Below are positions 12,453 to 38,887 of a stretch of 64,000 nucleotides of DNA, in pieces (position 1 is the stretch's first letter; each line of letters starts with the position of its first letter). The stretch is from Bacteroidota bacterium (GTDB lineage Bacteria > Bacteroidota > Bacteroidia > NS11-12g > UBA955): NCBI GenBank assembly GCA_023957335.1, contig JAMLHC010000002.1:386809-450808 (forward strand), read 5' to 3'. The notes under the pieces are model-generated. The model searched no databases. It saw only the letters and a program-made list of their open reading frames with translations, and was not told the origin of the DNA. The position numbers and the translations under genes are program-made.

Positions 12453-12459
12453 CAAAGAT

Positions 12460-13331: not shown

Positions 13332-13335
13332 AATC

Positions 13336-14694: not shown

Positions 14695-14699
14695 AACCT

Positions 14700-14744: not shown

Positions 14745-14747
14745 AAA

Positions 14748-14822
14748 ATGGGGACGATTTTCTGCCGCAATGCCTCTAAGGTAATGATACATGCAAGCAA
14801 TATGTTAAACCCAAGTGAATAA
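14748..14822 (+). pseudogene. Remnant of the 3' end of gene 4 (B type), 23 codons
   Basis: It encodes GTIFCRNASKVMIHASNMLN and stops at 14820-14822. The end of the intact copy B gene 4 (28838-28905) reads GVIFCRNASKVMIHASNMLN. It abuts the palindromic repeat at 14700-14744 and precedes the B-type FG-GAP gene at 14834. This is the same arrangement as at 13233, but derived from the other copy. Confidence 0.85.
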
Positions 14823-14886
14823 AAATAACTAATATGAAAAACAAAAAACATTTCACAGGAACAACAAGGGCGGTTGAGCATATTCG

Positions 14887-14976
14887 GGTGGCTGAGGCTC
14901 TCGAAGCCACCCGCTCAATAAGGGAAACCACCCGCAGAACCACAGCCGAACAGTGGCTTCGAGAGCCTCAGCCACC
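14887..14976. repeat. Inverted repeat pair, two 24-bp arms (14887-14910, 14953-14976)
   Basis: The arms are exact reverse complements (GGTGGCTGAGGCTCTCGAAG.. and its complement) separated by 42 bases. I recognise the arm as a dispersed palindromic repeat unit of Bacteroidota. It is placed inside the 5' end of FG-GAP3, adding about 30 codons in frame before the signal sequence. Confidence 0.8.
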
Positions 14977-16414: not shown

Positions 16415-16423
16415 ATATCAGAC
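16415..16423. repeat. 9-bp target site duplication, left of IS copy 3
   Basis: ATATCAGAC, identical to 17789-17797. Confidence 0.9.
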
Positions 16424-18202: not shown

Positions 18203-21200
18203 ATGCACTTCTTTATTGACCATACGAAACTAACTGAACAAACGACCTCAGAACTTAAATATGGGCCTAATTCTTCTGACCCAAATAATGTGTTCAATAT
18301 TTCCACTCAATTTCAATTGCCAGAAGAAGCTAGGGCTTTTGCATGCCAAAATGGTATGATGGTAGTTAGGAGGAATTCAAATGACCCTGACAATCTAGTC
18401 AATCTATATATTAAACCGTCCAATTCGGTTAGTATTGGAGGAATAGCTGTAAGATATTATATATACAGAGGTGTCAAACTTTCCAGTTTCTTTACCAAGG
18501 ATGGAAGTAATTTAAATATAAATGCCGAAGACCCTACAAATAGTGAGTTTATTGCTTTGTACTGGAATAGGAGAACGTTATTAGGAACAAAATCATACAT
18601 AACAATGTCCCCATCTTCTCCCTTGAATATAGGCTATGGTGATGATAGCTTATCTCTTTCTGACCCCAATAATCTTAATGAAAACAGACCAATAAGAGAT
18701 TTATTTAACGGAAAAGCTCCGGCAAAGGCGTTTGACGTTAAAGAAGGAATGTGGATTGGAGATTTTTCCAATTCTGCAAAGATTTCTTTCGAGATACAGT
18801 TGGATACGGAACTAAAATCAACTACTACACTAGGTAATAGTGCATTCAATGCTATTAGTATTTCCGTAGATGGCATTAATGATGAACAGGTTAAGAAGAG
18901 AAAACAAGAGTTTATTACTACTTACATTGACCCGGCTGCATTTTTCGGAATGCATGCAGATATAGGAGTAGAAGTAACTACATATAGTGGCTCTAGTAAG
19001 AATACTGAAACTAAGAAATTATCAAATGGTCTTTACTCAGACTTAATTTCAAAATTTGCAAATAAAAATAAAATATACCTCGACATAAAAAGTGAAAAAG
19101 GGATGTCATATAATTTTTATGACAACTACAAGGTAAGCATATCTGATTCTTCTAATATTAAGTTGAATGGGGCTGGTACACCCATTGAATATGGAACTAA
19201 TGGTTGGCCGATTATGTTTTTTGAAACATTAGCTAATGAAACTACTCAGGACAGAAAGAAATTAAGTTTTAAATTACGTATTGATAACAATAATACGCCA
19301 ATACTATTTTTATCAAACAAAGCCGAAAGTGACAAAACTGCATCAAAACAGATATCCTTTCTCAATATAAAGAAAGATGGAACTACAGGGTGGACAAATG
19401 AAGTATATATTTACCCAAAACACATTGGAGACACAAACAAAAACAATTTAGCAAACTATATCAAAGTTTATTATTTTGTTGGAGAAGCCATAGATACAGA
19501 TAGCACCAGATTGAAAAACAAAACATATTACGATTCTCCTTTTTGTTCAATTGATATTGAAAATATTGGGGAGCAATTACTTTCCATAAAAATGCTGCAA
19601 AGCTATAACCCTGTGTATGTAAAAGAACCTTTGCAATCAGACGGAACAGGTAACTTTTCTTTTGTTGCTGAATCTGGAGTATATTGGGATAGTAGCCAAA
19701 TATTATTTTACAGTAAAAAAACATTTCCCGGTGGCACATATCAAGAAGGTTCAGGAAAGAAGTATCTTCCGACTTTTAACAGACAACTAAAGATTGAAAC
19801 TCTTAATAACCATCAATTTAAACAATCGCTCAGAGATAATTTCGACATTACCTGCAAAAAATATCAAACAAGCAATGGTGATTTAAAAGTTCTTGGCTTA
19901 AATAGCTATCACCAATATCACAACCCTGCAGATGTTGTCGTTATCGGTAAAAAACCGATAAAACAATTAAAAGAAGACTTGATTTTATTGGGATTAACAT
20001 TATCAGAACTTCAGAGTTTAAAGAGTGTTACCGGATTATCTCCTGACCATCCCAAATATATTTTTTTAGAACCTGATTTTACCAATTTTTTATTGGATAA
20101 CCACAATATGCGATATTTTAAATTTAAGGTAAAAGTTCAGGGACTAAACAACGGAATTCCAACCATTGTCGCTCCAACTACACCTGTAATAGTTTATAGT
20201 CGGGACAAGCAGTTTTTTCATTCCGTGAATTTTGTCGAACATGAGGAATATAGTATAGGAAGAAATTTTGCAGGAGAGAATAGGATAGAATTTTCGATTT
20301 ATCACGATGGGAGAATTAAAATTAATGATAATATTGATTTTGCATTAATTCGAAAATCTGAAGCTGTTGACGAACACTTCGTTAGAAAAGAAAATCATAC
20401 ACAATCAGATAACGTCTTTGGGGCATTAATGCCAATTTATTATAAATACATCAGACCAAATTCTTTTAGTCCAACTGATGTTGATATTGCCCAATTTAAT
20501 ATTGTAATGACGAATGAAATGAAAAAAAAAGGAGATGGAAAGAAAATAACATCCGAATATTCATTAGTTACATCTTATACAAGAGGAGATACAAAAAGAA
20601 ATTTAAAAAGTCCCGTGACAGGACACATAATATCATCGAAACAAACCACAGGTAGTGTCGGCTATAAACATTATGAAAACACTCAACGAAAGACCTTTAT
20701 GATTCATTTTGTAACATCATTGAGTAATACGGATCTCCCTGATGTGGAAAACAGAATCTTTGATGATACAAACAACCAAAGTCTAGGTATTGACTTAGTC
20801 TATAGAGATACTCGAAGAACATATGGCAATCCTTATTTATGTGCAATAGTTTTAGGAGTTGTTATTAGAAATGGAAGATCTGTAACTCTTACAGGATTTG
20901 CTTTTGGTGATGCTTCTTGTGCTCCTAGTGCATCTCATGTCAATGGTATGGCATCTGATAATAGATACTTTCAACAATGGGGAGGAACACTTGCTCAGGA
21001 TGTTGAATTTATTGATTTGTTATTTGAATATGGTATTTCTTATGTGATAATAGGGAAATATAAACCTGCCGAACTTTTGACACAGCTAAAAACAAAAAGC
21101 TATTATAGTGCTAAAAACGTAATACAAGATACAAAAGATTTAAAAGATAAAAAAGGAAATTTCCTCGAACCAAGAAGATCTCTTCATGACGACCATTTAC

Positions 21201-21220
21201 ACGCACATTTAGTATTATAA
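18203..21220 (+). CDS. 1005-aa protein with C-terminal LAS/M15-type zinc peptidase domain, copy B gene 1
   Basis: There is no signal peptide or membrane segment. The N-terminal ~750 residues are not recognised. They include YYIYRGVKL around residue 90 and look beta-rich. The last ~150 residues carry GDASCAPSASHVNGMASD, with His 912 and Asp 919 in HxxGxAxD spacing, and the terminal HDDHLHAH with His 998, His 1000 and His 1002. This is the metal site pattern of LAS peptidases (M15/M74), which cleave peptidoglycan peptides. Copy A (1-606) shares both motifs. Composition is strongly AT-rich compared with genes 3 and 4. It is the first gene of the operon, 3 bases before the lipoprotein gene. A cell-wall-cutting role is inferred. 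How the protein would reach the wall without a signal peptide is open. Confidence 0.65.
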   Translation: MHFFIDHTKLTEQTTSELKYGPNSSDPNNVFNISTQFQLPEEARAFACQNGMMVVRRNSNDPDNLVNLYIKPSNSVSIGGIAVRYYIYRGVKLSSFFTKDGSNLNINAEDPTNSEFIALYWNRRTLLGTKSYITMSPSSPLNIGYGDDSLSLSDPNNLNENRPIRDLFNGKAPAKAFDVKEGMWIGDFSNSAKISFEIQLDTELKSTTTLGNSAFNAISISVDGINDEQVKKRKQEFITTYIDPAAFFGMHADIGVEVTTYSGSSKNTETKKLSNGLYSDLISKFANKNKIYLDIKSEKGMSYNFYDNYKVSISDSSNIKLNGAGTPIEYGTNGWPIMFFETLANETTQDRKKLSFKLRIDNNNTPILFLSNKAESDKTASKQISFLNIKKDGTTGWTNEVYIYPKHIGDTNKNNLANYIKVYYFVGEAIDTDSTRLKNKTYYDSPFCSIDIENIGEQLLSIKMLQSYNPVYVKEPLQSDGTGNFSFVAESGVYWDSSQILFYSKKTFPGGTYQEGSGKKYLPTFNRQLKIETLNNHQFKQSLRDNFDITCKKYQTSNGDLKVLGLNSYHQYHNPADVVVIGKKPIKQLKEDLILLGLTLSELQSLKSVTGLSPDHPKYIFLEPDFTNFLLDNHNMRYFKFKVKVQGLNNGIPTIVAPTTPVIVYSRDKQFFHSVNFVEHEEYSIGRNFAGENRIEFSIYHDGRIKINDNIDFALIRKSEAVDEHFVRKENHTQSDNVFGALMPIYYKYIRPNSFSPTDVDIAQFNIVMTNEMKKKGDGKKITSEYSLVTSYTRGDTKRNLKSPVTGHIISSKQTTGSVGYKHYENTQRKTFMIHFVTSLSNTDLPDVENRIFDDTNNQSLGIDLVYRDTRRTYGNPYLCAIVLGVVIRNGRSVTLTGFAFGDASCAPSASHVNGMASDNRYFQQWGGTLAQDVEFIDLLFEYGISYVIIGKYKPAELLTQLKTKSYYSAKNVIQDTKDLKDKKGNFLEPRRSLHDDHLHAHLVL

Positions 21221-21223
21221 ACC

Positions 21224-22060
21224 ATGAATACTTATACAATAAAAATTTGTTTTTTTGTTTTCCTATTGTCGTGTAACAGCAATACTACATCTAACAAGGA
21301 AAGCATAGAAATAAATAATATCCTCGCAGAATCGGATAAAAAACCGGATAGTGTTTTTTTGTCCTCAAAAAAAGAACAACTTGAAAGACAATGGGAAGAA
21401 GATACAACTTTATCAGATGAAGAACCAAAGATTACACCACTTCCATTCGGACCTTCAATAAAGAACATAGACGATTTATGCCTTCAAAACAAATTGTTCT
21501 ATTATAAAATCATTGAAACTGCCGCTTATATGAATGATTGTGAACCAAGATATACTAAAACATATTTATTTCCTCCAGTAGATTTTCTAAATATTACTAA
21601 AATCAATGAGAATGAATATTATGATGAATGCTATTATATCAACAGATTATTAAGCCCTCATGATATTAACAAAGTTTCTCGTTTAGCAAAATACAAAGTT
21701 CGTTTGCCCGATTTTGGAAAGTTTCAAGTTTTTTATATGAGCAATGAACACTATTTATTTCAGGATTTTATGGAAGGTTGCCAAAAGCCGAAGTATGGGA
21801 TAATAATTCTTTATGACAAAGAAGAAAGGAAAGCCAATTTATTAACTATCTTTAATGAGGAGAGTTTCGGTGCAGAAGGCACCTATCAAAGATTTTTTTA
21901 TATAGATAAAGATTACACAATTCATATTTGCAACATCAAAGAATCCTATGTTGTTTTTGATGAAGAAGAAAGTTTAGGTATTATCGAAAATGATATGCAA
22001 GAAACATATAAAATCGTCATTTCTTCTGAAGGTAAATTTTTAATTAACAATATTTTTTAA
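21224..22060 (+). CDS. Lipoprotein, copy B gene 2
   Basis: The protein has 278 residues. A short signal peptide, MNTYTIKICFFVFLLSC, ends in lipobox LLSC with Cys 17 as the lipidation site. The region after it is polar and acidic, then a PLPFGPSIKN motif is shared with the copy A lipoprotein (FPFGPKIS). I recognise no domain. It would sit in the periplasm or at the outer membrane. Its conserved place between the peptidase-type gene and the DUF6603-like gene, with gaps of 3 and 1 bases, suggests it works with them, for example as an anchor or an immunity-like partner to the peptidase. Both ideas are inference. Confidence 0.75.
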   Translation: MNTYTIKICFFVFLLSCNSNTTSNKESIEINNILAESDKKPDSVFLSSKKEQLERQWEEDTTLSDEEPKITPLPFGPSIKNIDDLCLQNKLFYYKIIETAAYMNDCEPRYTKTYLFPPVDFLNITKINENEYYDECYYINRLLSPHDINKVSRLAKYKVRLPDFGKFQVFYMSNEHYLFQDFMEGCQKPKYGIIILYDKEERKANLLTIFNEESFGAEGTYQRFFYIDKDYTIHICNIKESYVVFDEEESLGIIENDMQETYKIVISSEGKFLINNIF

Positions 22061-22061
22061 A

Positions 22062-25000
22062 ATGATAGATGAAAATCTTATTCCTGTAAATGAGCTAGTC
22101 CCAATTGAAAAAATCCCCGATGAATTGGGGTTCATAAAGGATTGCATAGAAGATATTATTGCTGACTTATTTGTTGGGGACTATGTTGTTCAGATTAGCG
22201 TACATAAAGAGTACGCTTTTTATAGCTTCAAATTACTCTCATTTACACGAATAGGTTTTGAATTTCCTAACACCAACGGTCTGACCTTGATATTAAATCC
22301 CGGTATAAATCAAACAAACTGGACAGAGTTCCCTGTTTCTTTGGCTTACTCTTTACCTATTTTGAAATATGTTAATACCTTTGATAGCGACAATTTTGAT
22401 TTTTCTCCCAGAGCATTTTTTGACATACTAATAGCGATTAGCAACACAAATAGAAGGAATATCTTAGAGACATTTATTAATTCTTTTTATGAATGGGATG
22501 AGTATGAGTATGAGGAGGAGTATGAGGAGGAGGAGGAAGAGGAAGAAGATGATGAGGAAAGAAGTCCACTTGAGAAATTTGTAGATGATTTTAATACAAA
22601 CTACACACCAACTACACCACTCGTAATCTCAACAGATGAAGAAACAGATGTAATTGAAGATTTACTTCTTCAAATGGAAAGCAATGGCAATGATTTTGAC
22701 ATTATTGAAATTATATTTACTGATTATATTATAGGCGAAGATATAGATGAGAGCATTTCAAATATTATAAAATTATTCCGTTATTTTATAGGCGATTTCA
22801 CCATTGGAAACATAACAAGCATGCTTATTCCCGAGGTCTCAGTATCTCTTGACAGCATTAATATTGCTTTAGAATTTCCCCGAAATATTCTCCAACCAAT
22901 TAACGAACAAACAGGAGAGGTTGATGAAGATGAGGATAAAAAATCTCGACTCTTATTTGAGGTAGGTTCTTTTTATTTTTCTTCACGTAAAGGTTTCGAC
23001 TTTGAAAACCTATCTTCCTTTAATTTCCCCAAATCCCAAATCGGCAACACAGGCTTCACCTTAGAATTTACCAATGCCAAAATAGACCTTTCGGACTCCA
23101 CCAACATTCCTGAAGCCGAAGCAGACGGGCGTACAGAATTCAAAGGAGTTTACATAGAAGAAGCCACCATAGGGCTGCCCAAAGACTGGGCAGACAACTC
23201 CACAGGCGTAGTAGAAATAAAAGGAAAAGAGCTGCTCATAGGCACAGACGGTGGTTTTTCGGGCAAAATAGGCGTAGAAGGCAATGGCAACCTCAAATTC
23301 AGCCTCTTAGGCATAGACATAGACTTTACCTCCTTTTATGTTGAGTTTAAGAAAAATGCGGTCATCTCCTCCGACATCAAAGGCAAGCTCACCATAGAGG
23401 GGCTGAAAGACTCCAAAGGCGATGATGCCGTGCTGGACTTCACCATAGACTGGAACGAGAACGGCTACACCATAAAATTTGAAAACACCAACGGCATTCA
23501 GCTAAAAGTCCCCAATGTGGTGGACATCACTTTGTACTCCCTTTCCATTGGCAGGACTGACGGCAAATGGCATTTCAGCAGCAAAGGCAAAATAGACCGT
23601 GTAGCAGACATACCCAAAATCGGGGCGATAATCCCGCGCACCCTTGACTTTAAGAAGTTTGAAATCAATCAGGGGGCAGCCAACGACTACGACATAGACA
23701 TCAAATGGGAAAACGATATAACAACCACCTTCCCTAAGAGCGGCTTATCCGTTGATGAAGAGCATGTTTTCCCTATCAACAAAACCTTCCTGAAAATCTT
23801 CACGCTCCATTTGATGAAATTCAAAGCATCGGGCAACGTGCAGGACGGGGCTGACCTAAGTGCGCTCATAGATGCTGACCTGAACCTCGACCCGATTTTC
23901 GGAACAATACGTGGCGGAGGGCTGAAAGCGGCTATCACCTTCCCCGAAAACGGAGGAAACTTAGGACCTGCCGACATTCGGTTCAGCCTTGTAACGCCCG
24001 ACTCCATGGGAATTCAGATAAAAATACCCGGGATAAAAGGAGGAGGCTGGCTGAAAAAAGACGAAAACGAAGAAGAATACGCAGGCTTGCTCCACCTTGA
24101 AATTCAGGACAAGCTGAAAATTACCGCTTACGGAATACTCAATCTTAGGCTTCCCAACGGCAACGCGGGATTCTCCATAGTGGGCATTGCCTCTGTGGAG
24201 TTCACCCCTGCCATAGACATTGCCATGGGGCTGAAACTGGGAGGAATAGGTGTGCTGTTCGGGCTGAACCGCTCTATGGACATAACCGCCTTGCAGGACA
24301 GCGTACGCGACAACACCCTGCAACACCTCATGTTCCCCGAAAAACCTGTCGAAAACGCCTCCACTATCATCAGCACTATGGGCAAAGTCTTTCCTGTAAA
24401 CGAAGGACAGTTTACCTTTGGGCTGCTTTTGAAAGCGTATTGGGGCGGAGAAAAGCTCGTAACGCTCACTATGGGTATTATGGTTGAGGTTAAAAACCCC
24501 GTCAAGATAGCTGTTGCGGGTGTGCTTACTCTCTCCCTGCCCGATGAGAAAAACCCCTTGGTGCTAATCAATGCGGCTTTCCTTGCTGCGGTTGATTTTG
24601 AGGTAAAAAAATTCCTGCTTGATGCAAAGATTTACGACTCCAAAATCATGAATGCTTCCGTGTCGGGGGATATACTGGCGCGGTATTACTGGGGAGAAAA
24701 CAGCGGCTTCCTGCTGTCCATAGGCGGTTTCCACCCTTCTTACACGCCTCCGCAAATGGATTTGCCCGCCAAGATAAACAGGCTTGCCATCAGCTTTATA
24801 AACGAGGCGGACAAATGGCTCAAAGGAGAATTTTACATGGCGGTAACCTCCAACTCGGTGCAGTTTGGGGCGGCTGTGGACTTATATGTAAAAATAACGG
24901 GCAAATATGTTCTCAAAGGCAATTTCAATCTGGACGTGCTGGTGTACACCAAACCCGAATTTTCGTTTATGGCGCAGATGCACATTAGTGCGGGGGTTTA

Positions 25001-25955
25001 CAGAAACAGCAAACAGCTTGCGGGAGTAAAAATAGACCTGTCCTTGCAGGGACCCAACCCCTACATTGCCACAGGGCGCGGAAGTTTTTCCGTAGGCAAG
25101 CTGACTATATCCGCCAACTTTGACGTACAAACCAAAACCAAAAAGACCGTTATTCAGGCAACTGCCAACGTATTTGAGCAGGTAGTAGCGCAGTTTGAGC
25201 AGGAATACTCGTGGATGATGGTGTTGCAGGACAGCAGCGCACCGCAGGTTTCCATAGCAGATATGTCAGACCAGCCGTCTGAAAGCAGCCCGCTGCTGCT
25301 GCACCCCATGGGCGGACTGGAAATAAAGCAGGGAGTTGCGCCTTTGGGTGTAAAGCTCGCCAGTTTTGGCAACGCACGTATTGAGGCGCAAACCCCCGAC
25401 AATATATGGGTGGCGGGTATTAAGATTCAGGGCGATACCGTACCTTTTACCCATGCGGAAGACAAATTCGCGCCCGGGCAGTTCTTCACCCTTTCCGAGC
25501 AGGAAAAGCTCAAATCCCCCTCGTTCAGCAATTACAGGGCAGGGATTCGCGTGGGCAGTACGGGCAAAATTGACACCTCCTGCATACGGGAAAGAAGCGC
25601 AACCCATGAAACAAAGATTATAGACAGAAGCTTTGACTACCCGACAAGGCACGACAACATAAACACTGCCCACTTTGACATGTCCCTGCAAGGCAATGCA
25701 ACGGCTGTGTCGGGTATATCATCGGGCAGGAACACGCAAAAATCCAGCCTTGACTCCGCAGAAGACGTTAAAATAGAGCAGGAAAAATACCACGTGGTAT
25801 TTACCGACACCTTTTCCGATGCAAATTCGGGACTGACATTCGGCTCTTTTCAGGCAGCAGAAGACAGCCTGACAACGCTTCTTGCAAGCCTGCAATTAGA
25901 CACAACCGACCTTATTGTTGTAAGAGAAAGTGAATATGAAATACTAATAGACTAA
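22062..25955 (+). CDS. Large beta-rich DUF6603-like protein, copy B gene 3 (1297 aa)
   Basis: The intact paralogue of the gene at 4148-7945. It has no signal peptide. It shows a divergent N-terminus with an acidic run of mostly Glu at residues about 145-167 (22495-22565), then from about residue 351 (ADGRTEFKGVYIEEATIGLP) a core nearly identical to copy A, including GLNRSMDITALQDSVRD at about 733. The C-terminal ~250 residues differ again. Core DNA around 24191-24590 differs from copy A 6190-6590 at only a few bases, far less than neighbouring segments, which suggests recent gene conversion. I recall the core as DUF6603. A repetitive beta structure with long Gly-rich turns is my reading of the sequence. 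The start is 1 base after the lipoprotein stop. Confidence 0.75.
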   Translation: MIDENLIPVNELVPIEKIPDELGFIKDCIEDIIADLFVGDYVVQISVHKEYAFYSFKLLSFTRIGFEFPNTNGLTLILNPGINQTNWTEFPVSLAYSLPILKYVNTFDSDNFDFSPRAFFDILIAISNTNRRNILETFINSFYEWDEYEYEEEYEEEEEEEEDDEERSPLEKFVDDFNTNYTPTTPLVISTDEETDVIEDLLLQMESNGNDFDIIEIIFTDYIIGEDIDESISNIIKLFRYFIGDFTIGNITSMLIPEVSVSLDSINIALEFPRNILQPINEQTGEVDEDEDKKSRLLFEVGSFYFSSRKGFDFENLSSFNFPKSQIGNTGFTLEFTNAKIDLSDSTNIPEAEADGRTEFKGVYIEEATIGLPKDWADNSTGVVEIKGKELLIGTDGGFSGKIGVEGNGNLKFSLLGIDIDFTSFYVEFKKNAVISSDIKGKLTIEGLKDSKGDDAVLDFTIDWNENGYTIKFENTNGIQLKVPNVVDITLYSLSIGRTDGKWHFSSKGKIDRVADIPKIGAIIPRTLDFKKFEINQGAANDYDIDIKWENDITTTFPKSGLSVDEEHVFPINKTFLKIFTLHLMKFKASGNVQDGADLSALIDADLNLDPIFGTIRGGGLKAAITFPENGGNLGPADIRFSLVTPDSMGIQIKIPGIKGGGWLKKDENEEEYAGLLHLEIQDKLKITAYGILNLRLPNGNAGFSIVGIASVEFTPAIDIAMGLKLGGIGVLFGLNRSMDITALQDSVRDNTLQHLMFPEKPVENASTIISTMGKVFPVNEGQFTFGLLLKAYWGGEKLVTLTMGIMVEVKNPVKIAVAGVLTLSLPDEKNPLVLINAAFLAAVDFEVKKFLLDAKIYDSKIMNASVSGDILARYYWGENSGFLLSIGGFHPSYTPPQMDLPAKINRLAISFINEADKWLKGEFYMAVTSNSVQFGAAVDLYVKITGKYVLKGNFNLDVLVYTKPEFSFMAQMHISAGVYRNSKQLAGVKIDLSLQGPNPYIATGRGSFSVGKLTISANFDVQTKTKKTVIQATANVFEQVVAQFEQEYSWMMVLQDSSAPQVSIADMSDQPSESSPLLLHPMGGLEIKQGVAPLGVKLASFGNARIEAQTPDNIWVAGIKIQGDTVPFTHAEDKFAPGQFFTLSEQEKLKSPSFSNYRAGIRVGSTGKIDTSCIRERSATHETKIIDRSFDYPTRHDNINTAHFDMSLQGNATAVSGISSGRNTQKSSLDSAEDVKIEQEKYHVVFTDTFSDANSGLTFGSFQAAEDSLTTLLASLQLDTTDLIVVRESEYEILID

Positions 25956-25959
25956 CCTT

Positions 25960-28905: not shown

Positions 28906-28909
28906 AATT

Positions 28910-30430
28910 ATGAAAAAGATACTTTTAAACACACTCGTACTGCTCATTCCTTCCCTCCTTTTTGCACAGGAAAACGGAGAAGTAAAGAATATGCAGAAAA
29001 TTACAATTAATCAAAGTTCCACTACACATTACGGATTTTCTATTGCTGAATTAAAAAAAAATACTACTTCTAAAATAGTAGTAGGAGCTCCTAATTTTGG
29101 TCAGAATGGAGAGGTTTTCATTCACAATCTTAATTCCAATGGCACAATACAATCTACTGTGAGGATAACCCAAAACACAGGCGGCTTTGGAGACCACAAT
29201 ATTTCCAGCCATGCTTTTGGTTATGCAGTTGCTAATGTAGGGGATTTAAACGATGACGGCATAGACGACATTGTAGTAGGAACACCCTATTCTGGTGCTC
29301 AAAGAGGCTCTTTGTGGTTCTTGTTTTTAGATGCGGACGGACAAGTGATAGGCGAAAGAAGGCTAAGTGATACTACTCCAACTTTTGGAACAATAGTCGA
29401 TGGAAATTACTTTGGCACAAGCATAGCCAACATAGGCGATATTGACGGCAATGGCTATGACGATATTGCGGTGGGTGCTTATTCTCAAAATGCTGCAACA
29501 AGCAACAGTGGGTCTGTTTATATCATACTGTTAGAAAAAGACGGAAAAGTAAAATCCCATTCACGGATTAACGACAACAACAACCTGTTTGGAAGAAACC
29601 ATTGGTATTTTGGTACTAGTGTCGCCAATATAGGGGATATGGACGGAGACGGTAATACGGATTTAGCAGTCGGTGAGCCGGGCTTAAATGAAACAGTATG
29701 GATACTTTTCCTGAACAGTGATGGCACACTAAAAGGTGTTCAGGAAATAGGGGAAGGCAAAGGCGGGTTTACAGACTCTTTTAATGTAGGCTCAAATTTT
29801 GGTAGGTCAGTAACCAATTTAAGAGATATGGACGGAGACGGAATAAATGATATTGCGGTTGGAGAACTGGGGTATGAAAATCCTGATTCTTCGGGCAGTC
29901 TGTATGGCAGGGCTTGGGTGTTGCTGCTTAATGCAAACGGAACAGTTAAGAAGAACATAGAAATAAACAATGGGCAAGGTGGGTTTACAGGAAATATAAG
30001 CAGTGGGGATAGGTTTGGAGGGGCAGTTGCCCGCATTTCAGATTTAGACGGAGACGGAGTACCTGAACTTGCAGTCGGAGCATTTAGCGACCAATCTGCT
30101 ACGGCAGGTTCGGGCGCGGTGTATATCCTATTCCTGAAAGGCGTACCGCAGGTAAGCGTGCCGCACATAGCCGCTCCGCTTTTTCAGGCACAGGCATACC
30201 CCAACCCCGCAAACAGCACCCTGCACATAAACCTAAGCCAAGCGCAAAGCGGGGCGGTTTCCCTGCAACTGCTTGATATGCAGGGCAGAGCAGTCAAAAC
30301 CCAACATTTCCCCAATGCCTTTGAGGAAATTCAATTAGATATATCAGACATAAGCACCGCAGGGCTGTACCTGCTAAGAATAGAACATAAGGGTTCTGTA
30401 CTTCACAAAAAAATACGTATAGAGAAATGA
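28910..30430 (+). CDS. Secreted FG-GAP repeat protein with T9SS sorting domain, copy B gene 5 (FG-GAP4)
   Basis: The protein has 506 residues. The signal peptide is MKKILLNTLVLLIPSLLFAQ. FG-GAP motifs include GDLNDDGIDDIVVG, GDIDGNGYDDIAVG and GDMDGDGNTDLAVG, forming a probable seven-bladed propeller with calcium loops. The sorting domain starts at AYPNPANSTLHINL and ends GLYLLRIEHKGSVLHKKIRIEK. This is the complete B-type gene that FG-GAP2 and FG-GAP3 resemble. It overlaps the next gene by 4 bases (ATGA), so its product and the 1,712-residue protein are probably made together. Surface exposure via T9SS is well supported, but ligand and role are not. Confidence 0.88.
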   Translation: MKKILLNTLVLLIPSLLFAQENGEVKNMQKITINQSSTTHYGFSIAELKKNTTSKIVVGAPNFGQNGEVFIHNLNSNGTIQSTVRITQNTGGFGDHNISSHAFGYAVANVGDLNDDGIDDIVVGTPYSGAQRGSLWFLFLDADGQVIGERRLSDTTPTFGTIVDGNYFGTSIANIGDIDGNGYDDIAVGAYSQNAATSNSGSVYIILLEKDGKVKSHSRINDNNNLFGRNHWYFGTSVANIGDMDGDGNTDLAVGEPGLNETVWILFLNSDGTLKGVQEIGEGKGGFTDSFNVGSNFGRSVTNLRDMDGDGINDIAVGELGYENPDSSGSLYGRAWVLLLNANGTVKKNIEINNGQGGFTGNISSGDRFGGAVARISDLDGDGVPELAVGAFSDQSATAGSGAVYILFLKGVPQVSVPHIAAPLFQAQAYPNPANSTLHINLSQAQSGAVSLQLLDMQGRAVKTQHFPNAFEEIQLDISDISTAGLYLLRIEHKGSVLHKKIRIEK

Positions 30431-33400
30431 GCTTTATAACAAAACAAACCGACTACCTGAACGAAAGAGTCTTGCGGGACGAGGCGGAGAAAGAGTATAT
30501 CAGAAGAAGAGAAAGGCTCCGTATTCTGGAAGCAGAAATCGCCCGCAAGGAAGCAGCAGAAGAAGACATTGAAGACGAAGAAGAGGAACGTGATATTCTG
30601 GCGGCAAAAGATAATTCTGTGCCTCCTACCAGCCCGCCCGCAGGCAGCGTACAGGAAGCGCAAATGGATTTTGCAGCACTGCAAGCAAGCACCCGCAGCA
30701 AATACGAAACCTTAGCCGCACACACCCTCCTGCACAAAAATCTCGTAAACAACCTGAACGACAAATACCCTGTATTGCTGCTGCCTGTGCGAATAGAAAC
30801 CCGCTTCTATCTGGATTCAAACAACAAATACCACCTAAAAGTGCGCTTCTTTCCCGATGATGTACATATAGAAAACCACGAATGGTTGCTCACCCCCACA
30901 GAAGTGCAGGACAGAGCCGACTACATGGATGTTGTAAATGCTGCACAGGCAACAGAAGGAGAGAAAAAAGCCGCATGGAACACCCTTGCACTGGCACACG
31001 GCAGCCAAAGAGCCGCCTTTATCCTCAAACAAAGCTCCGCTTCCGAGCAAAGCGAAGCATGGGTACGACAGGCGGAAGCCCGCACCCTGCCCGACAAGTT
31101 TGTAACAACCTTCTATTTCAAAGGTCAGTACGACTCCGATTACAGTCTTGTGGGAGAGAGAGAAAGCGCGCTTGTAAGCGACAGCATAAAGCTGAGCTTA
31201 GACCCCAATGACGAAACACAGATAGACCTTGACAATGAAGACAAAATAGTGTTTGGCGAATCACTCAAATGGATGGGGGATTTCAACGAGGCGAAAGAAT
31301 GTGGTATGGCAATAGAGGTAAAACTTGAAGACCTGAACCTTAGCACAACGGATATTGAGACAGGCGAACTGAAACTGGTGGTTTTGGGAGTAAAAATATC
31401 TGCCGATGCAGCGTTGGGCAAAACCCTGCTGGAAGACCTCATAGACGACCACCACTACACCGACTTAGGCATGAGCCTTCTCAAAATAGGTCAGCCCACA
31501 CACAACACCTCTGTTTCCGATTCCGCTTTCACTACGCACGACTTAGGCAACCACAGGAGCTACCATGTTGAAGTAGAAAACGAAACCTTCTCTGCCGCAT
31601 CGGGCTTTGAGGAGCAGACAGACGGAGAAAGACTGGCGCAGGCATTTGGCATAGCCCCCTCAACGCTGTACCACATAGAAAACACAACAGGCACAGACAT
31701 AAAAAAAGCCTTGCAGTTCAACAAAATGCTGTGGCGTGCCACAATCGGCTACAAGCTCGAATACGGCTTTCTGGACGTTATGTCCCTGCAATCCATTCAG
31801 CAGACAAGAGAATTTTTCACCAAGCACATTGCAGGACGGGGCTTGCTTCCCTCCATTCGCATAAACGAACAGGCGTATGGAATACTGCCCGCAAGCATTT
31901 TTTCCCAATGGACATGGCACAACACAGAGCCAAACAAAAACTTTCTGGACAACCTGACCCATACCGTACAAAACATGAGCGACATAGTGGGTACGTATGC
32001 AGCAGGCAAAAGCCCTGTTTCTCAGGGCAGCAGCCCCCGTCAGGACGTTATCTCCGTACTTGGCAACAGCCCTGTATCTACGGACATATACCACCGCTTT
32101 GCCATGAGCGAAGACTACACATGGAATCTTTTCTCCTTTCAGAACAAGCTCAGCGATGCCTCCACATGGCACAGCGACCTGCAAAATCAGGCATCGCAGA
32201 CCATGCAGGATTTGGGCTTTCCGAGCACCCCGCCCCCCAGAATGACCCGCCTGACCCACATGCAGGCAGAAGGCAAATACACAGGTGCGCTCGTGCAGGA
32301 AGGCAAAGGCGGACAAAATCAGCCCCTGCGCCCCTTGCAGGGAGCAAGCGAAAACTACCTGCAATGGCTCTCCGAAAGCAACTACCCGCAAATTCTGAAC
32401 GAGGACTTTTCCAACGTAAGCGCAAGTGCTACGGCTCCCAATACTCTACTTTACAAATTAGCCAAAAAAGCCCTGCTGGAAGAATACAGAAATGCTGCTA
32501 TTGCCTTTTCCGAAGCCTATCCGCACCTGATTCAGCTTGACCGCAATATTCCTGAATTTACAAACATATCAGATATTGGCGGCACTCCTCCCATTGCTAC
32601 CCTTGAAATTCTTTTTGAAGGGTGGAATACTTCCACGCTCAACATAGAAATAGTGAACGAAGGCGAAAACGGCTACCCTCCGGAAGACATAGAAGTTCAG
32701 ATACATACAGGTGTCGGAATGTTTACGGCATTCACTCAGGCAGGAGGAACTGTACAGTGTACGGTTACTCACTCAGGGATTCAAAACCTCACCATAGACG
32801 TACTACACCAAAGCCTTATACTTCACACACAGCTTTACGCCTTATTCCCCGGTACGAACGCCACGCTGACTATCACTATTATGATACCGTCATCGGGTTT
32901 GCCTTATAGCAATATTATAACAGGAGGACAAAGCTTTGCCGCCATAATGCAGGAACACAGAAACTTTGTCATTAATGCTGTTCCCTTTAGCGGCACACTG
33001 CATCAGCTTGTGGACTCCCCTCTTTATGCAAATGCTGCGTGGAACATATCCTATCAGGAGTGCCGTGCTGTCTTTGCCGACATACACCAATGGAGTGTGT
33101 CCGACCTTGAAATCTTTCTAAAAGAACACATGGACTTAGGCTCGTTCAGGCTCGATGCATGGCAGCATGGCATGGTTCACCAAAGAATACAAAAAATGCG
33201 GAATACCTCCGGCTATCAGACAGGCTTGTACTTGGGTGCGTATGGCTACATAGAGCAACTAAAACCCAAAACAAACAGGCTGAACATAAGCGGAAGCGTA
33301 GGGGATATTACTGATGATATAGAAAACAGTGTTGAGGGAGGCTACATTCACACCCCTTCTCCCAACCACGCCTCGGCTGCCGCCATTCTCAAAAGCGGCT

Positions 33401-35565
33401 ACCTGAACAAGCAGGGCGGAGATTCCAAAGCCAAAGAAGTTACGCTCACTTCCGAGAGGGTGCGTCTGGCGCAAAAATTCTTTGCAGGAGTCAGAAACGG
33501 TCAATCACTGGGCGCATTGCTCGGCTACGAGTTTGAACGCGGGCTTAACGAAAGGCACTCCCCAACCCTCAATCTCAACCACTTTATATACGATTTCAGA
33601 AAAAGTTTTTCCTTAGACGAAATAACCGAAGGCACCGAAACAGAAAAATCTTTCATATTGGACGGTTGGAAACTGTTTGTAGCTACCCGCAAAGAATCCA
33701 ATGCAACATTTAACTACAGCCTTGACTTCCTGAGCGGAATTCCGCAGGCGGAAGAAGATGCCATAGAAGCGGAGCTTGACCGCTTGGCAGAGGTGTTTGA
33801 TGCCATAAGCGATGTTTGCCTTGCAGAAGCCGTTTACTGCCTTGTGCAGAACAACTACGAAAAAGCGGGAGCAATAACAGATGCGCTGAAAAGCGGCAAA
33901 CTCATTACACAGGAGCTTGATTTCCTGAAAACACCGCTCACGGGCTCAATCCTGACACAGCGTTACGCGCTCATGCTTGACAAAGAAAGCATTGACGAGA
34001 TAAAAGAAGAAATTGAAGGAATATGGGGCGGAAACATTACCCCGCGCCTGCAAGCAGAGCCTTATCTTTCCAAGCTCGTTGCGCAGTTCATACCCAACCC
34101 CGAAAGTGTTCTCTGCAAGGTTCAATGTCAGCCGCCCGAAGGTGCAGGCTATGATGTCAGCTTCTCGCTTGCGGACTTAGAATTGCAGCCCTTAGATATA
34201 ATCTCCGTCTTCCCCGAAGAGCTGGCTAACGATACCTCCGAACTGGCAAGGCTCATTCGGTACAAAGTAAAAAAACAGGAAAACCTGCCGCACAACACGG
34301 AAATCAGTGTCCTATACAACGAGCCTCTGCAACCCGGCACTCCTGTTTCAGACCCCGTTTCATTCAGCGAAGCATTACCCCTGATTAAGCGGATAAAGAA
34401 GCTGATTGCAGCTTCCCGTCCCCTGCGCCCCGAAGATTTTATCGCCTCCAACTCCGCCATACCCGAAGAGGCGGAAATTACCTACGAAAGAGAGGAGTTC
34501 TTCGGTCGTATTGAAGCAATCTTAGAATCGCTCGAAAACCTGAAAACAGCTTTGAACAACGCCATTGTAGCGTTAGTGCCGCTTGAAAGTGGTTTTGCAA
34601 ACCAGATAAACGAATTGCGGGATTGTATTCTTGAAGCATGGGCTTTTAACATCATGGACGCTGCCCCGATTGAATATGCAACAGAAACCGACACGGCAGC
34701 CAAAAACGCCTTGCTGGAACAGGGAGCAATCGCAGTCAAAGCACTTGACAGAAAACTTACGGACACAGAGGAGCTTTGGGAAAACTTTGAAGACAACGAA
34801 TACATAAATTCCGACACCGCCCTAAGGGATTTGCAGCATATAGCCAAAATCATTTTCGGAGACGCATTTGCCTGCGCTCCTCTGTTTAAGTTCATAAACA
34901 AACCTGAAATGCAGCAGGCTTGGGGAAATACGGGAACACTTATAGACGAATCTGCGGACAGGGAAATGGAAATAGAAAAATGGTTTCAGGGCTTAACCAA
35001 AGTACGCTCCAACCTGCGGGAGCTGGACATAGTGCAGTCGCTCGGAGAAAGCCTGTTCAGCCTTGAAAACCACCGGGAGCCTGTTCAGTTTCCTTTCACA
35101 TCGGGCGACAGATGGATGGCAATAAAGCAGAATAGTACGGATTACAGCCATGACAAGACCTCTGTTGTCATCTCTTTTGGACATATATCGCCCACTCCGT
35201 CCCTTGACCACACATGCTGGCAGACAGGACTGCTCATAGACGAATGGGTGGAGGTTATTCCCGCAAAAGAAGAAATATCAGGACTTGCGTTCAACTACGA
35301 CCAGCCGAACACCAAAGCCCCTAACTGCCTGCTCTACACCGTTACACCCGAAGAAACAGGCAACTGGACATGGGCAAAGCTGTTAGGCTCTGTAAACGAA
35401 ACATTCTACTTAGCCAGGCAGCGCAACGTAAGCCCTGATGAGCTTTCACACAGTGCGATAGGAGTTATAAACAAAATTATAGACCAGTATAATGCAATGT
35501 ACTTAACTGCAAACTCAATGCACTCCGCAGAGCTAAGCGCAGGAGCGACAGTTGTATCCGTATAA
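30427..35565 (+). CDS. Uncharacterised 1712-aa protein (LLPVRIETRF family)
   Basis: The N-terminal ~85 residues are highly charged and likely coiled coil (ERVLRDEAEKEYIRRRERLR...), followed by a Pro-rich linker. From about residue 114 comes YPVLLLPVRIETRF, then FFPDDVHIENHEW, and about residue 478 INEQAYGILPAS. I recall these motifs from very large hypothetical proteins of actinobacteria and other phyla that travel with homologues of gene 4 and the 643-residue protein. There is no signal peptide, Walker motif or other catalytic signature that I can identify. It is present once, although the five upstream genes are duplicated. The start ATG overlaps the FG-GAP stop by 4 bases, and the next gene follows after 23 bases. 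Confidence 0.65.
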   Translation: MSFITKQTDYLNERVLRDEAEKEYIRRRERLRILEAEIARKEAAEEDIEDEEEERDILAAKDNSVPPTSPPAGSVQEAQMDFAALQASTRSKYETLAAHTLLHKNLVNNLNDKYPVLLLPVRIETRFYLDSNNKYHLKVRFFPDDVHIENHEWLLTPTEVQDRADYMDVVNAAQATEGEKKAAWNTLALAHGSQRAAFILKQSSASEQSEAWVRQAEARTLPDKFVTTFYFKGQYDSDYSLVGERESALVSDSIKLSLDPNDETQIDLDNEDKIVFGESLKWMGDFNEAKECGMAIEVKLEDLNLSTTDIETGELKLVVLGVKISADAALGKTLLEDLIDDHHYTDLGMSLLKIGQPTHNTSVSDSAFTTHDLGNHRSYHVEVENETFSAASGFEEQTDGERLAQAFGIAPSTLYHIENTTGTDIKKALQFNKMLWRATIGYKLEYGFLDVMSLQSIQQTREFFTKHIAGRGLLPSIRINEQAYGILPASIFSQWTWHNTEPNKNFLDNLTHTVQNMSDIVGTYAAGKSPVSQGSSPRQDVISVLGNSPVSTDIYHRFAMSEDYTWNLFSFQNKLSDASTWHSDLQNQASQTMQDLGFPSTPPPRMTRLTHMQAEGKYTGALVQEGKGGQNQPLRPLQGASENYLQWLSESNYPQILNEDFSNVSASATAPNTLLYKLAKKALLEEYRNAAIAFSEAYPHLIQLDRNIPEFTNISDIGGTPPIATLEILFEGWNTSTLNIEIVNEGENGYPPEDIEVQIHTGVGMFTAFTQAGGTVQCTVTHSGIQNLTIDVLHQSLILHTQLYALFPGTNATLTITIMIPSSGLPYSNIITGGQSFAAIMQEHRNFVINAVPFSGTLHQLVDSPLYANAAWNISYQECRAVFADIHQWSVSDLEIFLKEHMDLGSFRLDAWQHGMVHQRIQKMRNTSGYQTGLYLGAYGYIEQLKPKTNRLNISGSVGDITDDIENSVEGGYIHTPSPNHASAAAILKSGYLNKQGGDSKAKEVTLTSERVRLAQKFFAGVRNGQSLGALLGYEFERGLNERHSPTLNLNHFIYDFRKSFSLDEITEGTETEKSFILDGWKLFVATRKESNATFNYSLDFLSGIPQAEEDAIEAELDRLAEVFDAISDVCLAEAVYCLVQNNYEKAGAITDALKSGKLITQELDFLKTPLTGSILTQRYALMLDKESIDEIKEEIEGIWGGNITPRLQAEPYLSKLVAQFIPNPESVLCKVQCQPPEGAGYDVSFSLADLELQPLDIISVFPEELANDTSELARLIRYKVKKQENLPHNTEISVLYNEPLQPGTPVSDPVSFSEALPLIKRIKKLIAASRPLRPEDFIASNSAIPEEAEITYEREEFFGRIEAILESLENLKTALNNAIVALVPLESGFANQINELRDCILEAWAFNIMDAAPIEYATETDTAAKNALLEQGAIAVKALDRKLTDTEELWENFEDNEYINSDTALRDLQHIAKIIFGDAFACAPLFKFINKPEMQQAWGNTGTLIDESADREMEIEKWFQGLTKVRSNLRELDIVQSLGESLFSLENHREPVQFPFTSGDRWMAIKQNSTDYSHDKTSVVISFGHISPTPSLDHTCWQTGLLIDEWVEVIPAKEEISGLAFNYDQPNTKAPNCLLYTVTPEETGNWTWAKLLGSVNETFYLARQRNVSPDELSHSAIGVINKIIDQYNAMYLTANSMHSAELSAGATVVSV

Positions 35566-35588
35566 AGTAAATAAAGAAATTTTAAATT

Positions 35589-37520
35589 ATGCCATATTCA
35601 CCAACAGGTTTTATGCTCTCCATGTTAGACCTGAGCACAAAAACCAAAAATTTCAGACACCAATATACGCAAAGCGTACACGATGCCTTGTGGGCGTTAA
35701 GCTCCCAATATATGTTAGGGCAGTTTAAAGGCGAAGACGCAGGCAGCGCATTGCTTGCAAGAGTTTATTACGACACACGGAAAATAAACAGGTTTCAGCC
35801 CGCCAACGGAGAAGTAGCCCACTTTGACGGAACAGCTCCTTTGGACGTGCTGATTGAAAGGCAGAAAATAGTGTTTGACCTCGGTATTCAGATTCAGACA
35901 GGCAGGTACTGGAAAAAGATGTTGAAGAAACACGAAATAGAAGGGTACGCAGGCAACTTTGCAGCAGCTTTCCCGATAAGCCTCGCCTTCACCCCCGAAG
36001 AGATTGCAAATACGGACGAAAGCGAGCTGAGGCAGTCCCTGCACGGACGCACAACCAACGGAGGCGACCTGCATGAATACCTCACCGCTGACGGAATAAA
36101 AAAAGCGGAAGACCTGATGGCGGAAATGAACGACAGGCTTTCCGAACCGGAAGAAGAAGATATTATTGACTCCAACGATGAAGAAAAGTTAGACGATGCC
36201 ATAACGGATTTCCTGAACTTTGTTTCCGGGCTGTACAACCACTCAACCAACGAAAGCGCATGGAACAAATCACGGTTGGAATACACTGCAAAATGCTCTT
36301 TCCCCACAGATGTCGGTACGGGCGCACAGCAGGTGCTGGTTGCAGAAGAGTACAACGGAAACGGCACGGAATGGAGCACCTTTGACAGAAGCAGGGAAAG
36401 CAACGACACCCTTACGGAAGATATATCCCATGACATAACCAACAGCGAAGCCGTTAAGTCAGGTTTTTTTGAGGTTCTCCCCAATCCCGTAACCTTCAAG
36501 GGTATGCCCACAGACAGGTGGTGGCAGATTCACGATGCCCGCACTAACCTATTCAAATGGGACAACGACAAAAGCGATGTTACAGGCACAATGATGAAGG
36601 ATTTTGCCCTCACCTTCAATCCCGACTGGCTTCAGATACCTTTCTCTCTTGAAGCAGGGAGTTTTACCGAAGTCAAGCACCTTGTTGTCAAAGACATTTT
36701 CGGTTTTTACCACTATGTTGGCGGAGAGAAAGTAACAATGCCGGCTAACAACTGGGACGTATTTAAACAAAACAAGCAAACACAATTCTACAACACAGAT
36801 ACAAGGTTTTATTACTCTGCAAGAGTGAAGGCTCTTGAAAGCGAGATACTTGAAAAAGTTTCTTTGCAAAGGGACGAAATGGCAAATATGGTGTGGGCGG
36901 TAGAATCCCTCATATACAACGGAATAGGCGGCACAAGAGATGGTGCGGCTGCGGCTCTCAAACTGACTGACTTCCACAGGGAGCACACATACAAAGTTGA
37001 TTTGTTCGGGCACAGTCAGGAAAAATATGACTACTCCGAAGAGGAATCCACTTACGACATACTTCGGTACAAACTCTTGAACTCAACACCCGAAAACTGG
37101 ATACCTTTCATTCCCCACCGAACAGATGAGGAAAATATGCAAATCCGTTTTCAGCGTGCGCGGTTCAGGCGAATCATAAAAGGGAGCGTACCCAATGAAC
37201 CGCTCGCTGATGATTTTGTGCAGCCGAGAACCTCTTTCCTCAGGCATGGTCTGGATTCCGACCCGCACGAACCCTATTTTATCTTTGAGGAAGAGATACC
37301 GAGAGCAGGTGCAATTGTGTTCAGGCAGTTTAAACGTGTGCGCTGGCATGACGGCTCTGTGCATGTATGGCTGAGTAATCAGAAAACAACAGGCAGGGGA
37401 GAAACACTAAGCCACCTGCAATTTGACACACTTGAAAAGAAATACGATGACGAATACAGGGAAAGAATACGCGACCGGTATATGGAGCCGGATTACGCCC
37501 CGATAAATTATTCAGAATAA
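35589..37520 (+). CDS. Uncharacterised 643-aa protein (GEDAGS / EEEIPRAG family)
   Basis: Recognisable conserved blocks are LGQFKGEDAGSALLARV (about residues 40-56), DRWWQIHDA (about 308), LQRDEMANMVWAVE (about 427), PENWIPFIPHR (about 500), EEEIPRAGAIVFRQFKRVRW (about 566) and TTGRGE (about 600). I recall the same blocks, in the same order, in uncharacterised actinobacterial proteins next to homologues of the 1,712-residue protein. No function is known to me. There is no signal peptide. The central ~residues 130-250 are acidic and less ordered. It lies 23 bases after the 1,712-residue gene and 22 bases before the next. Confidence 0.65.
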   Translation: MPYSPTGFMLSMLDLSTKTKNFRHQYTQSVHDALWALSSQYMLGQFKGEDAGSALLARVYYDTRKINRFQPANGEVAHFDGTAPLDVLIERQKIVFDLGIQIQTGRYWKKMLKKHEIEGYAGNFAAAFPISLAFTPEEIANTDESELRQSLHGRTTNGGDLHEYLTADGIKKAEDLMAEMNDRLSEPEEEDIIDSNDEEKLDDAITDFLNFVSGLYNHSTNESAWNKSRLEYTAKCSFPTDVGTGAQQVLVAEEYNGNGTEWSTFDRSRESNDTLTEDISHDITNSEAVKSGFFEVLPNPVTFKGMPTDRWWQIHDARTNLFKWDNDKSDVTGTMMKDFALTFNPDWLQIPFSLEAGSFTEVKHLVVKDIFGFYHYVGGEKVTMPANNWDVFKQNKQTQFYNTDTRFYYSARVKALESEILEKVSLQRDEMANMVWAVESLIYNGIGGTRDGAAAALKLTDFHREHTYKVDLFGHSQEKYDYSEEESTYDILRYKLLNSTPENWIPFIPHRTDEENMQIRFQRARFRRIIKGSVPNEPLADDFVQPRTSFLRHGLDSDPHEPYFIFEEEIPRAGAIVFRQFKRVRWHDGSVHVWLSNQKTTGRGETLSHLQFDTLEKKYDDEYRERIRDRYMEPDYAPINYSE

Positions 37521-37542
37521 AAAAAACTTAATATCTACCAGT

Positions 37543-38361
37543 ATGGCACTAAACTTAAAAACAAGAGCAGGCAAATCAACTCCCCTAACCCATGAGGAGA
37601 TTGACGGTAATTGGGAAAACATTGAAGAACTGTCCAACTCGCTTGAAGCAGATGTAAACGAGCTTAAAGGCTCTTATGGAGCTACGGTTGAAACGCTTCT
37701 TGACCTTGCAGCTGTCGAGCAGGCGGAAATACCCGCTATGCAGCGCAGGTTTGTGAGCGAAGAGCAGGCGGAATACTACTACGACCCAGCCGCAGAAGAA
37801 GGCGACATCGCCCCCGATGACCAGGACAATGAAACGGGCTTCTGGATTAAAAGGGTGCTGAATGAGGAAGAGGTGCTGGAAACGGAAATCAGCAACCTTC
37901 CTTCGGGCAGCGACATACCCGTTGCAAACGGTCAGAACCTGATAACTTCTCTGGCGAATGTTCAATCCCAGATAAATGCCTGCAAAAGCGCACTGGAAGA
38001 CACAAACGACAGCATAGACGAAGTGAAAGCGTCTCACGGTCTGAATGTGGAAGACATTGAAGAACTGGAAGATTTGCCTCAGGCACAGATTCCGCCCTTC
38101 CAGAGAAGATACGTTGTGAGCGAAGATACGGAATACTTCTACGACCCCGCAGCAGAAGAAGGAGATGTTGCCCCTGATGACCAAGACAACGACACAGGCT
38201 TCTGGATTAAAAGAAAGGTAAAGGAAGAAGAGGTATTAGCTTCCGAACTAAGCGATTTGCCCGCAGGGAGCGATACGCCAATCGCCAACGGACAGTCTAT
38301 CCTTGAAGCATTAGCCAACCTGCAAGCGCAGATTGATGAAATTAAACAAAGCATAGAGTAA
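37543..38361 (+). CDS. 272-aa duplicated-repeat protein with phage-tail-like N-terminus
   Basis: The N-terminus LKTRAGKSTPLTHEEIDGNW resembles the start of many phage tail-fibre or tail-associated proteins (pattern LT..E.D.N). Two tandem repeats of 120 residues follow, marked by YYDPAAEEGD and FYDPAAEEGD (Asp 81 and Asp 201), each preceded by QRR[FY]V and followed by DDQDN.TGFWIKR, LP.GSD.P.ANGQ and a predicted coiled coil (LANVQSQINACK, LANLQAQIDEIK). Coiled coils suggest a trimeric or fibrous product. It is the last gene of the operon. No terminator hairpin is obvious in 38362-38424. The tail-fibre link is motif-level only. Confidence 0.6.
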   Translation: MALNLKTRAGKSTPLTHEEIDGNWENIEELSNSLEADVNELKGSYGATVETLLDLAAVEQAEIPAMQRRFVSEEQAEYYYDPAAEEGDIAPDDQDNETGFWIKRVLNEEEVLETEISNLPSGSDIPVANGQNLITSLANVQSQINACKSALEDTNDSIDEVKASHGLNVEDIEELEDLPQAQIPPFQRRYVVSEDTEYFYDPAAEEGDVAPDDQDNDTGFWIKRKVKEEEVLASELSDLPAGSDTPIANGQSILEALANLQAQIDEIKQSIE

Positions 38362-38781: not shown

Positions 38782-38802
38782 CAGCCCTCAAAAAGCCTAT
38801 CC

Positions 38803-38876
38803 GCACCCATAGCTCAACCGGATAGAGCAACTGCCTTCTAAGCAGTAGGTTTCAGGTTCGAGTCCTGATGGGTGCG
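38803..38876 (+). tRNA. tRNA-Arg (anticodon TCT)
   Basis: Acceptor GCACCCA pairs with TGGGTGC, the anticodon stem ACTGC/GCAGT encloses loop CTTCTAA, and the T-arm contains GGTTCGAGTCC. CCA is not encoded. It lies 66 bases after the deacetylase remnant at the island edge. Confidence 0.95.
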
Positions 38877-38887
38877 CCCTACAAGAC

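Follow-up and report, generated by a model that had tools for sequence, protein, structure and literature searches.

A conserved four-gene core around DUF6603 with an exchangeable upstream enzyme and a probable enzyme-matched adaptor in bacteria and haloarchaea

We analyzed a stretch of 64,000 nucleotides from a Bacteroidota bacterium (contig JAMLHC010000002.1 of assembly GCA_023957335.1, positions 386,809 to 450,808), here called the window, which contains an operon of eight plus-strand open reading frames (ORFs) at 18203-38361. Four of their products, namely a DUF6603 protein and three large proteins designated p981, p1712 and p643, belong to a core whose gene order is fixed across many phyla. 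The enzymes encoded directly upstream of this core are diverse, a C-terminal domain carried by part of them is confined to the operon in 20 whole genomes, and the N-terminal half of DUF6603 is concordant with the class of the neighbouring enzyme. From these comparisons, a modular organisation of cargo, adaptor and chassis is very probable, and the co-inheritance of the parts leads us to infer that they bind each other and form a single complex. The whole explanation that we favour, a modular enzyme-carrier system with chassis, cargo, adaptor and export or delivery, is on balance probable, while its last element, the destination of the enzyme, is a conjecture that we hold tentatively. Taken at its widest, the system may represent an undescribed class of multi-protein machines, present in bacteria and archaea and not found in viruses, which would export or inject interchangeable enzymes through class-specific adaptors, with cargo and adaptor half swapped as a block; this, too, is put forward with reserve.

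The order DUF6603, p981, p1712 and p643 on one strand was found in essentially all of the 97 loci with a long enough contig, as scored with profiles built in this analysis. The exceptions are L056, where p643 is not nearby, L060, where p643 is displaced, and a few split genes. In the window, DUF6603 is followed by p981 (25960-28905, + strand, 981 residues), p1712 (30427-35565, +, the largest of the core proteins, encoded once in the genome) and p643 (35589-37520, +). The core is distributed over 12 bacterial phyla, with labels taken from the organism names of the sequence records (Bacteroidota, Cyanobacteriota, Chloroflexota, Pseudomonadota, Actinomycetota, Acidobacteriota, Planctomycetota, Gemmatimonadota, Myxococcota, Verrucomicrobiota, Bacillota and WPS-2), and plasmid records add the Halobacteria. 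A tblastn search of these plasmid records recovered p981 alongside p1712 in Streptomyces, Nocardia, Rhizobium, Gemmatirosa and four haloarchaea, and in those regions all four core genes are consecutive. At least 461 relatives of p981 were confirmed in the genomes of 84,980 species, and the best 80 of these 461 were read. Moreover, within a single sample of 296 genomes from the phylum of the window, the six that have p981 are exactly the six that have p643, and DUF6603 exceeds its cut-off in those six and in six others. The six others carry a second operon type, composed of DUF6603, a p981-like protein with a remote relation to p981 (hhalign probability 90, E 1.4e-6) and an unrelated protein of 1.2-1.4 thousand amino acids (kaa). 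In this second type (L117-L123, Bacteroidota), DUF6603 has 1300-3200 amino acids and the upstream genes vary, one being metallo-beta-lactamase-like by look.

An earlier note on this DNA, made from the sequence alone, had described eight co-directional and tightly spaced genes, and its coordinates, strand and gaps (3, 1, 4, 4, -4, 23 and 22 bases) are correct. It had likened gene 3 to DUF6603, which agrees with a Pfam match at E 6.5e-100 (PF20248, 335.5 bits against a curated cut-off of 27). It also stated that the families of gene 4 and of the 1,712- and 643-residue proteins recur together in other phyla, as they do across the 97 loci; the gene-neighbourhood comparison that it proposed shows the four families co-occurring in unrelated phyla. 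The note had further taken all eight genes as one multi-protein system. The recurrence of the families speaks for such a system, but the conserved unit consists only of DUF6603, p981, p1712 and p643; outside it, the genes for the lipoprotein, the FG-GAP protein and the tail-fibre-like protein have been added locally. Genes 1, 2, 4, 6 and 7 match no Pfam, NCBIfam or PHROG family (E values of 0.1-1 being noise), and searches of the core proteins in Pfam, NCBIfam, PHROGs, PADLOC and the PDB gave nothing beyond DUF6603. The PDB searches yielded no relative of the core proteins, weak profile matches to helical bundles being coiled-coil noise. A viral origin was rejected, since a search of 2.9 million viral contigs gave no relative of p981. 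One GenBank record named 'Bacteriophage sp.' (MT835531.1, L124) is an unverified faecal scaffold with DUF6603, p1712 and p643; it also has an actinobacterial BTAD regulator by look, resembles an actinobacterial chromosome fragment and is probably mislabelled.

The gene immediately upstream of DUF6603 varies between loci, and one to three such slot enzyme genes are present per locus. Pfam recognised 15 subtilases, 5 PhoD phosphatases and 4 M64 peptidases among 69 slot proteins, together with trypsin/NAL1-like proteins, a tyrosinase, a phospholipase-D-like (PLD) protein and a copper-radical (glyoxal/galactose) oxidase. Most of the slot serine proteases retain GTSM or GDSG, and HELGH is kept in three of the four M64 peptidases. 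Several large slot proteins have no family; by eye only, the CL1 group shows HG...GC and L058 shows GHSRG. In the window, the candidate occupant of the exchangeable slot is gene 1 (g1; 18203-21220, +, 1005 amino acids, no signal peptide), whose C-terminal zinc motif, with HVNGMASD at residue 912 and HLH at residue 998, fits the HxxGxAxD and HxH of LAS/M15-type peptidases. We did not assign g1 to these peptidases because no Pfam family matched it at E up to 1. A slot protein of Paenibacillus (L109) has a region RRxYxNP..SHxNG...HxH that is similar to g1 by reading, and tblastn between the two gave no match.

We then compared the cargo classes, defined from the slot proteins alone, with trees of the core proteins. 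For 44 loci and seven classes, FastTree trees, in which the N-terminal halves are partly very divergent and linkage is uncorrected, need 6 class changes on the first ~486 residues of DUF6603 (the minimum being 6), compared with 22 for the rest of DUF6603 and 23 for p981 and p1712, these three serving as controls. When the classes were shuffled 200 times on the N-half tree, the mean was 27 changes and never fell below 23. Sliding trees with eight classes (minimum 7) gave 7-10 changes along residues 1-524, 19 in the segment 450-599, and 26-31 in every later segment to the end of p643. The concordance holds before residue ~525 and is lost from there through p643, so the N-terminal half of DUF6603 behaves as an enzyme-matched adaptor would on a constant chassis. 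In addition, for held-out loci the N-half alone gave the right cargo class in all nine that could be judged, namely L018 (an archaeon, PhoD), L022, L024, L027, L029, L032, L054, L088 and L089, the last of which paired with the oxidase type of L064.

The change at this position is also visible in the DNA. L055, with a trypsin, and L050, with a tyrosinase, have 86% DNA identity over the stretch that runs from residue ~487 of DUF6603 as far as the end of p643, while immediately upstream of this residue no DNA similarity is detectable. Other near-identical cores with different cargo break at ~492 (L043/L052) and ~451 (L057/L056). Between cargo classes, the mean identity is 23% for N-halves and 53% for C-halves. 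The DNA breakpoints and the trees place the exchange seam inside the DUF6603 gene and not at its start. The cross-phylum seam, residues 450-525 of L055, corresponds to residues 605-679 of the window's DUF6603 (nucleotides 23874-24096). Consequently the gene can be described in two parts on the + strand: an N-terminal part of about residues 1-640 (22062-23990), equivalent to the putative adaptor half of the homologues, and a C-terminal part (23991-25955), which would belong to the constant chassis and carries PF20248 (residues 580-1147 of the protein).

Trypsin-like slot enzymes and seven subtilisin-like ones, whose catalytic folds are unrelated, have in common a C-terminal domain of ~125 residues, referred to here as the docking domain, with the consensus ...LVNxxRxVTxxWHRxxGPAF...P....GV......M..L...GS..L. 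No Pfam family matches it convincingly (best E 0.002). Where two or three slot genes of these kinds stand in tandem at one locus, each carries the domain. In 20 whole genomes, all 25 of its occurrences are inside the operon, with coordinates checked by hand against the loci; among the 296 genomes of the window's phylum it was found in three, two of which have the core.

As for structure, DUF6603 is predicted to be a very large antiparallel beta-meander of mostly amphipathic strands. The model of the relative at L033 (pLDDT, the predicted local distance difference test, 79; pTM, the predicted template modelling score, 0.48) has a helical N-terminal region of ~235 residues and then some 40 antiparallel strands, which are mostly amphipathic with 16% charged residues. 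Foldseek matched this model to LptD and the FimD usher at E 2e-6 to 9e-4; the TM-scores of about 0.13-0.22 are low and the similarity is of local strands only, so a barrel or outer-membrane protein was dropped. When an AlphaFold model of p643 (pLDDT 77) was compared with the PDB, no matching fold was found. In most p981 proteins, basic residues flank one or two hydrophobic helices near the centre of the protein, but this hairpin is absent in both copies of the window and in the haloarchaeal and Streptomyces members read. It is therefore not a defining part, and a role as a pore was dropped. A simple hydropathy scan, used in place of a trained predictor, found an N-terminal signal helix in none of 269 core homologues and an N-terminal hydrophobic helix in one of 69 slot enzymes.

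Taken together, these results are compatible with the following mechanism. First, the C-half of DUF6603, p981, p1712 and p643 would assemble as four constant parts of a chassis. Second, the cargo would consist of one to three enzymes, hydrolytic or oxidative, whose genes lie directly upstream. The N-half of DUF6603 would bind its own cargo class and couple it to the chassis; cargo of the trypsin-like type, and some of the subtilisin-like type, would bring the docking domain as an extra, dedicated attachment. Third, recombination inside the DUF6603 gene would exchange the cargo gene and the adaptor half together as a block. The assembly would then most likely move the enzyme outside the cell or into a target, independently of Sec. 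Export or delivery into a target is the preferred, conjectural destination, to which the following point: the slot enzyme families are mostly known as secreted enzymes, some core relatives bear extracellular-type domains or are annotated with them (p643 is fused to a lamin-tail domain in Salinigranum, and records of core relatives carry BGTF and VCBS product names), and the window has a lipoprotein and proteins of the type IX secretion system (T9SS).

Several observations weigh against this explanation. No export signal, energy source or channel was identified in the products of the system. A trypsin-like protein that carries the docking domain (L147) is an orphan in its genome (G029), in which no core was detected; conversely, L108 (Pedobacter) has a chassis with a subtilase-type N-half in a genome without a gene bearing the domain. 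The M64 and CL4 classes are not cleanly apart on the 69-row N-half tree, the N-terminus of the window's DUF6603 has no detectable relative among the other classes, and the system is incomplete at L056. Furthermore, the cargo gene adjoins the adaptor half, and linkage alone could preserve their pairing if recombination starts only in the C-half.

The strongest rival explanation is a system for defence or regulated cell death inside the cell, in which the chassis would sense a stimulus and release or activate a protease or another effector. Swappable effectors with a common accessory domain, including trypsins and subtilases, would suit it, as would the frequency of the system in filamentous or multicellular lineages; a similar set of trypsins, a subtilisin and effector-associated domains is described by Kaur et al. 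2020 (PMC7159879), and most of our operons lack an obvious immunity gene, which also fits. However, no nucleoside triphosphatase (NTPase) family of the STAND or MoxR type or otherwise, and no sensor family, was found in any core protein, nor was the docking domain seen in them. PADLOC matches no core protein (apart from one noise match, 0.0015) and recognises one cargo through a generic subtilase model. Housekeeping genes dominate the neighbourhood, which has no resemblance to a defence island; among the families listed for 67 neighbours, the only matches were of the methyltransferase and mad2 types. As suicide effectors, moreover, a tyrosinase, a copper-radical oxidase, PhoD or M64 would be out of the ordinary. 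We consequently regard this rival as unlikely.

A less likely possibility still is that the pairing reflects linkage only: the cargo gene and the N-half would travel together since recombination needs the conserved C-half, and a complex of some other purpose would pick up enzymes. The genes are indeed adjacent, and the seam falls at the border of the conserved Pfam domain. But linkage predicts breakpoints between the cargo gene and DUF6603 as well, yet the concordance is near its minimum over ~520 residues, in many phyla and an archaeon, and the divergence of N-halves between classes, far exceeding that of C-halves, also argues against it.

The earlier note had tentatively placed the assembly at the cell surface, with g1 acting on cell walls. 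A surface complex for wall remodelling, in which the lipoprotein and the T9SS propeller protein would hold g1 as a wall peptidase, accords with the zinc motif, with the lipoprotein and T9SS genes in both copies of the operon, and with the lamin-tail fusion and the BGTF and VCBS names. However, the resemblance of the zinc motif was the sole basis for wall activity, non-wall enzymes occupy the same slot elsewhere, even in archaea without peptidoglycan (L018, PhoD-like), and the core proteins have no signal peptides, so that we consider it very improbable. That the system is a remote member of known injection machines (Tc toxins, contractile injection systems or type VI secretion) is hardly credible: the like logic of constant machine, variable enzyme and adaptor, the hairpin of most p981 proteins and the tail-like gene 8 would suit it, but no sheath, tube, baseplate, ATPase, TcA/TcB/TcC or RHS family was found in any product, and the PDB and viral searches described above gave it no relative.

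The remaining genes of the locus are as follows. A putative lipoprotein of 278 amino acids (21224-22060, +), with a lipobox-like FLLSC N-terminus by direct reading and no family, is added between the slot gene and DUF6603. An FG-GAP beta-propeller protein of 506 amino acids with a T9SS sorting domain (28910-30430, +; Pfam FG-GAP 8e-34, Por_Secre_tail 4e-13) is inserted between p981 and p1712. These two are the only products of the operon with signal peptides, as the earlier note had said and direct reading of the N-termini confirms. Gene 8 (37543-38361, +) encodes a repeat protein of 272 amino acids that is similar to a 'tail protein' from a Maribacter phage, with 42% identity across 41% of gene 8 (E 2e-7); its internal repeat comprises RRFVSEEQAEYYYDPAAEEGDIAPDDQDNETGFWIKR and RRYVVSEDTEYFYDPAAEEGDVAPDDQDNDTGFWIKR. 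A tRNA-Arg (tct) is located at 38802-38879, 0.4 kb downstream of the operon end, and is a possible island boundary.

Upstream, at 1-16447, we found a partial second copy of the operon that the earlier note had missed and that is interrupted by a transposase ORF. All its genes are on the + strand: the C-terminal part of a second g1 (1-606; its start precedes the window; 38% identical to g1), a second lipoprotein of 208 amino acids (603-1229), a second DUF6603 (4097-7945, the start probably being the ATG at 4145; it shares 63% identity with copy 2, that of the eight-gene operon), a p981 paralogue of 967 amino acids (7959-10862; 34% identical to p981) and three FG-GAP genes (10866-12422, 13336-14694 and 14834-16447, the third without a complete sorting domain). 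The host genome has one p1712 gene and two g1 genes. The transposase ORF at 1252-1872 is nearly identical over its first ~200 residues to those of the ORF at 16523-17722, and a small ORF at 12683-13003, MazF/PemK toxin-like by eye, lies between FG-GAP genes of the upstream copy. Inside the DUF6603 gene, the GC (guanine plus cytosine) content rises from 0.32 to 0.46 at ~23,003 in copy 2 (23003-23108) and at ~5,100 in copy 1, and there the DNA identity between the copies rises to 87%. The two DUF6603 proteins are about 60-100% identical at residues ~350 to ~1000 and 22-52% identical outside. This pattern suggests gene conversion or a common recombined segment between the two copies. The GC step lies ~0.8 kb upstream of the cross-phylum seam and was therefore not taken as proof of the same seam.

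The four core families are without known function or solved relative, yet at least 461 stretches encode relatives of p981. The step-like concordance of one DUF6603 half with the neighbouring enzyme offers a direct and testable mechanism that would unite them, and, if the enzyme-carrier explanation is true, bacteria and archaea would have a new and naturally modular route to deploy enzymes. Among known families, DUF6603 (PF20248) clearly includes the C-half of gene 3, whereas the N-half, the operon and the link with cargo are outside the Pfam entry; Pfam gives no function for it, and no paper that we found in the open-access literature names DUF6603 or PF20248.

The docking domain is comparable to the T9SS C-terminal sorting domain in that both are C-terminal domains common to unrelated enzymes, but it is confined to one operon per genome (in the 20 genomes above) and not spread genome-wide. 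It also occurs in phyla that, to our knowledge, are not known for T9SS. NTP-dependent conflict systems have swappable effectors, including trypsins, and effector-associated domains (Kaur et al. 2020, PMC7159879) and a similar lineage range; here the domain is on the cargo only, and no counterpart was found for the giant core proteins. Tc (ABC) toxins are large complexes with a variable enzyme, described as a membrane translocator plus cocoon (PMC6868009). We found no sequence relation to them: no TcA, TcB or TcC (RHS) domain is present in p981, p1712 or p643 of the window, and the relatives scanned gave only the lamin-tail domain; here, moreover, the cargo is a separate gene and the four core proteins are unrelated. 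The earlier note had judged the operon not to be a standard contractile injection system, rightly so, because Pfam, NCBIfam and PHROG found no sheath, inner tube, baseplate or AAA+ ATPase gene of contractile injection, type VI or extracellular contractile injection systems among the eight products. Type VI secretion combines a constant machine with exchangeable effectors and with adaptors or MIX domains that mark the cargo, according to PMC10433429 and PMC10673891. The present system has the same modular logic without the structural families of type VI secretion, its putative adaptor is fused to a core component, and it is also archaeal. Thus we found it to be a member of no known system, and by analogy it would work like the modular effector-adaptor systems.

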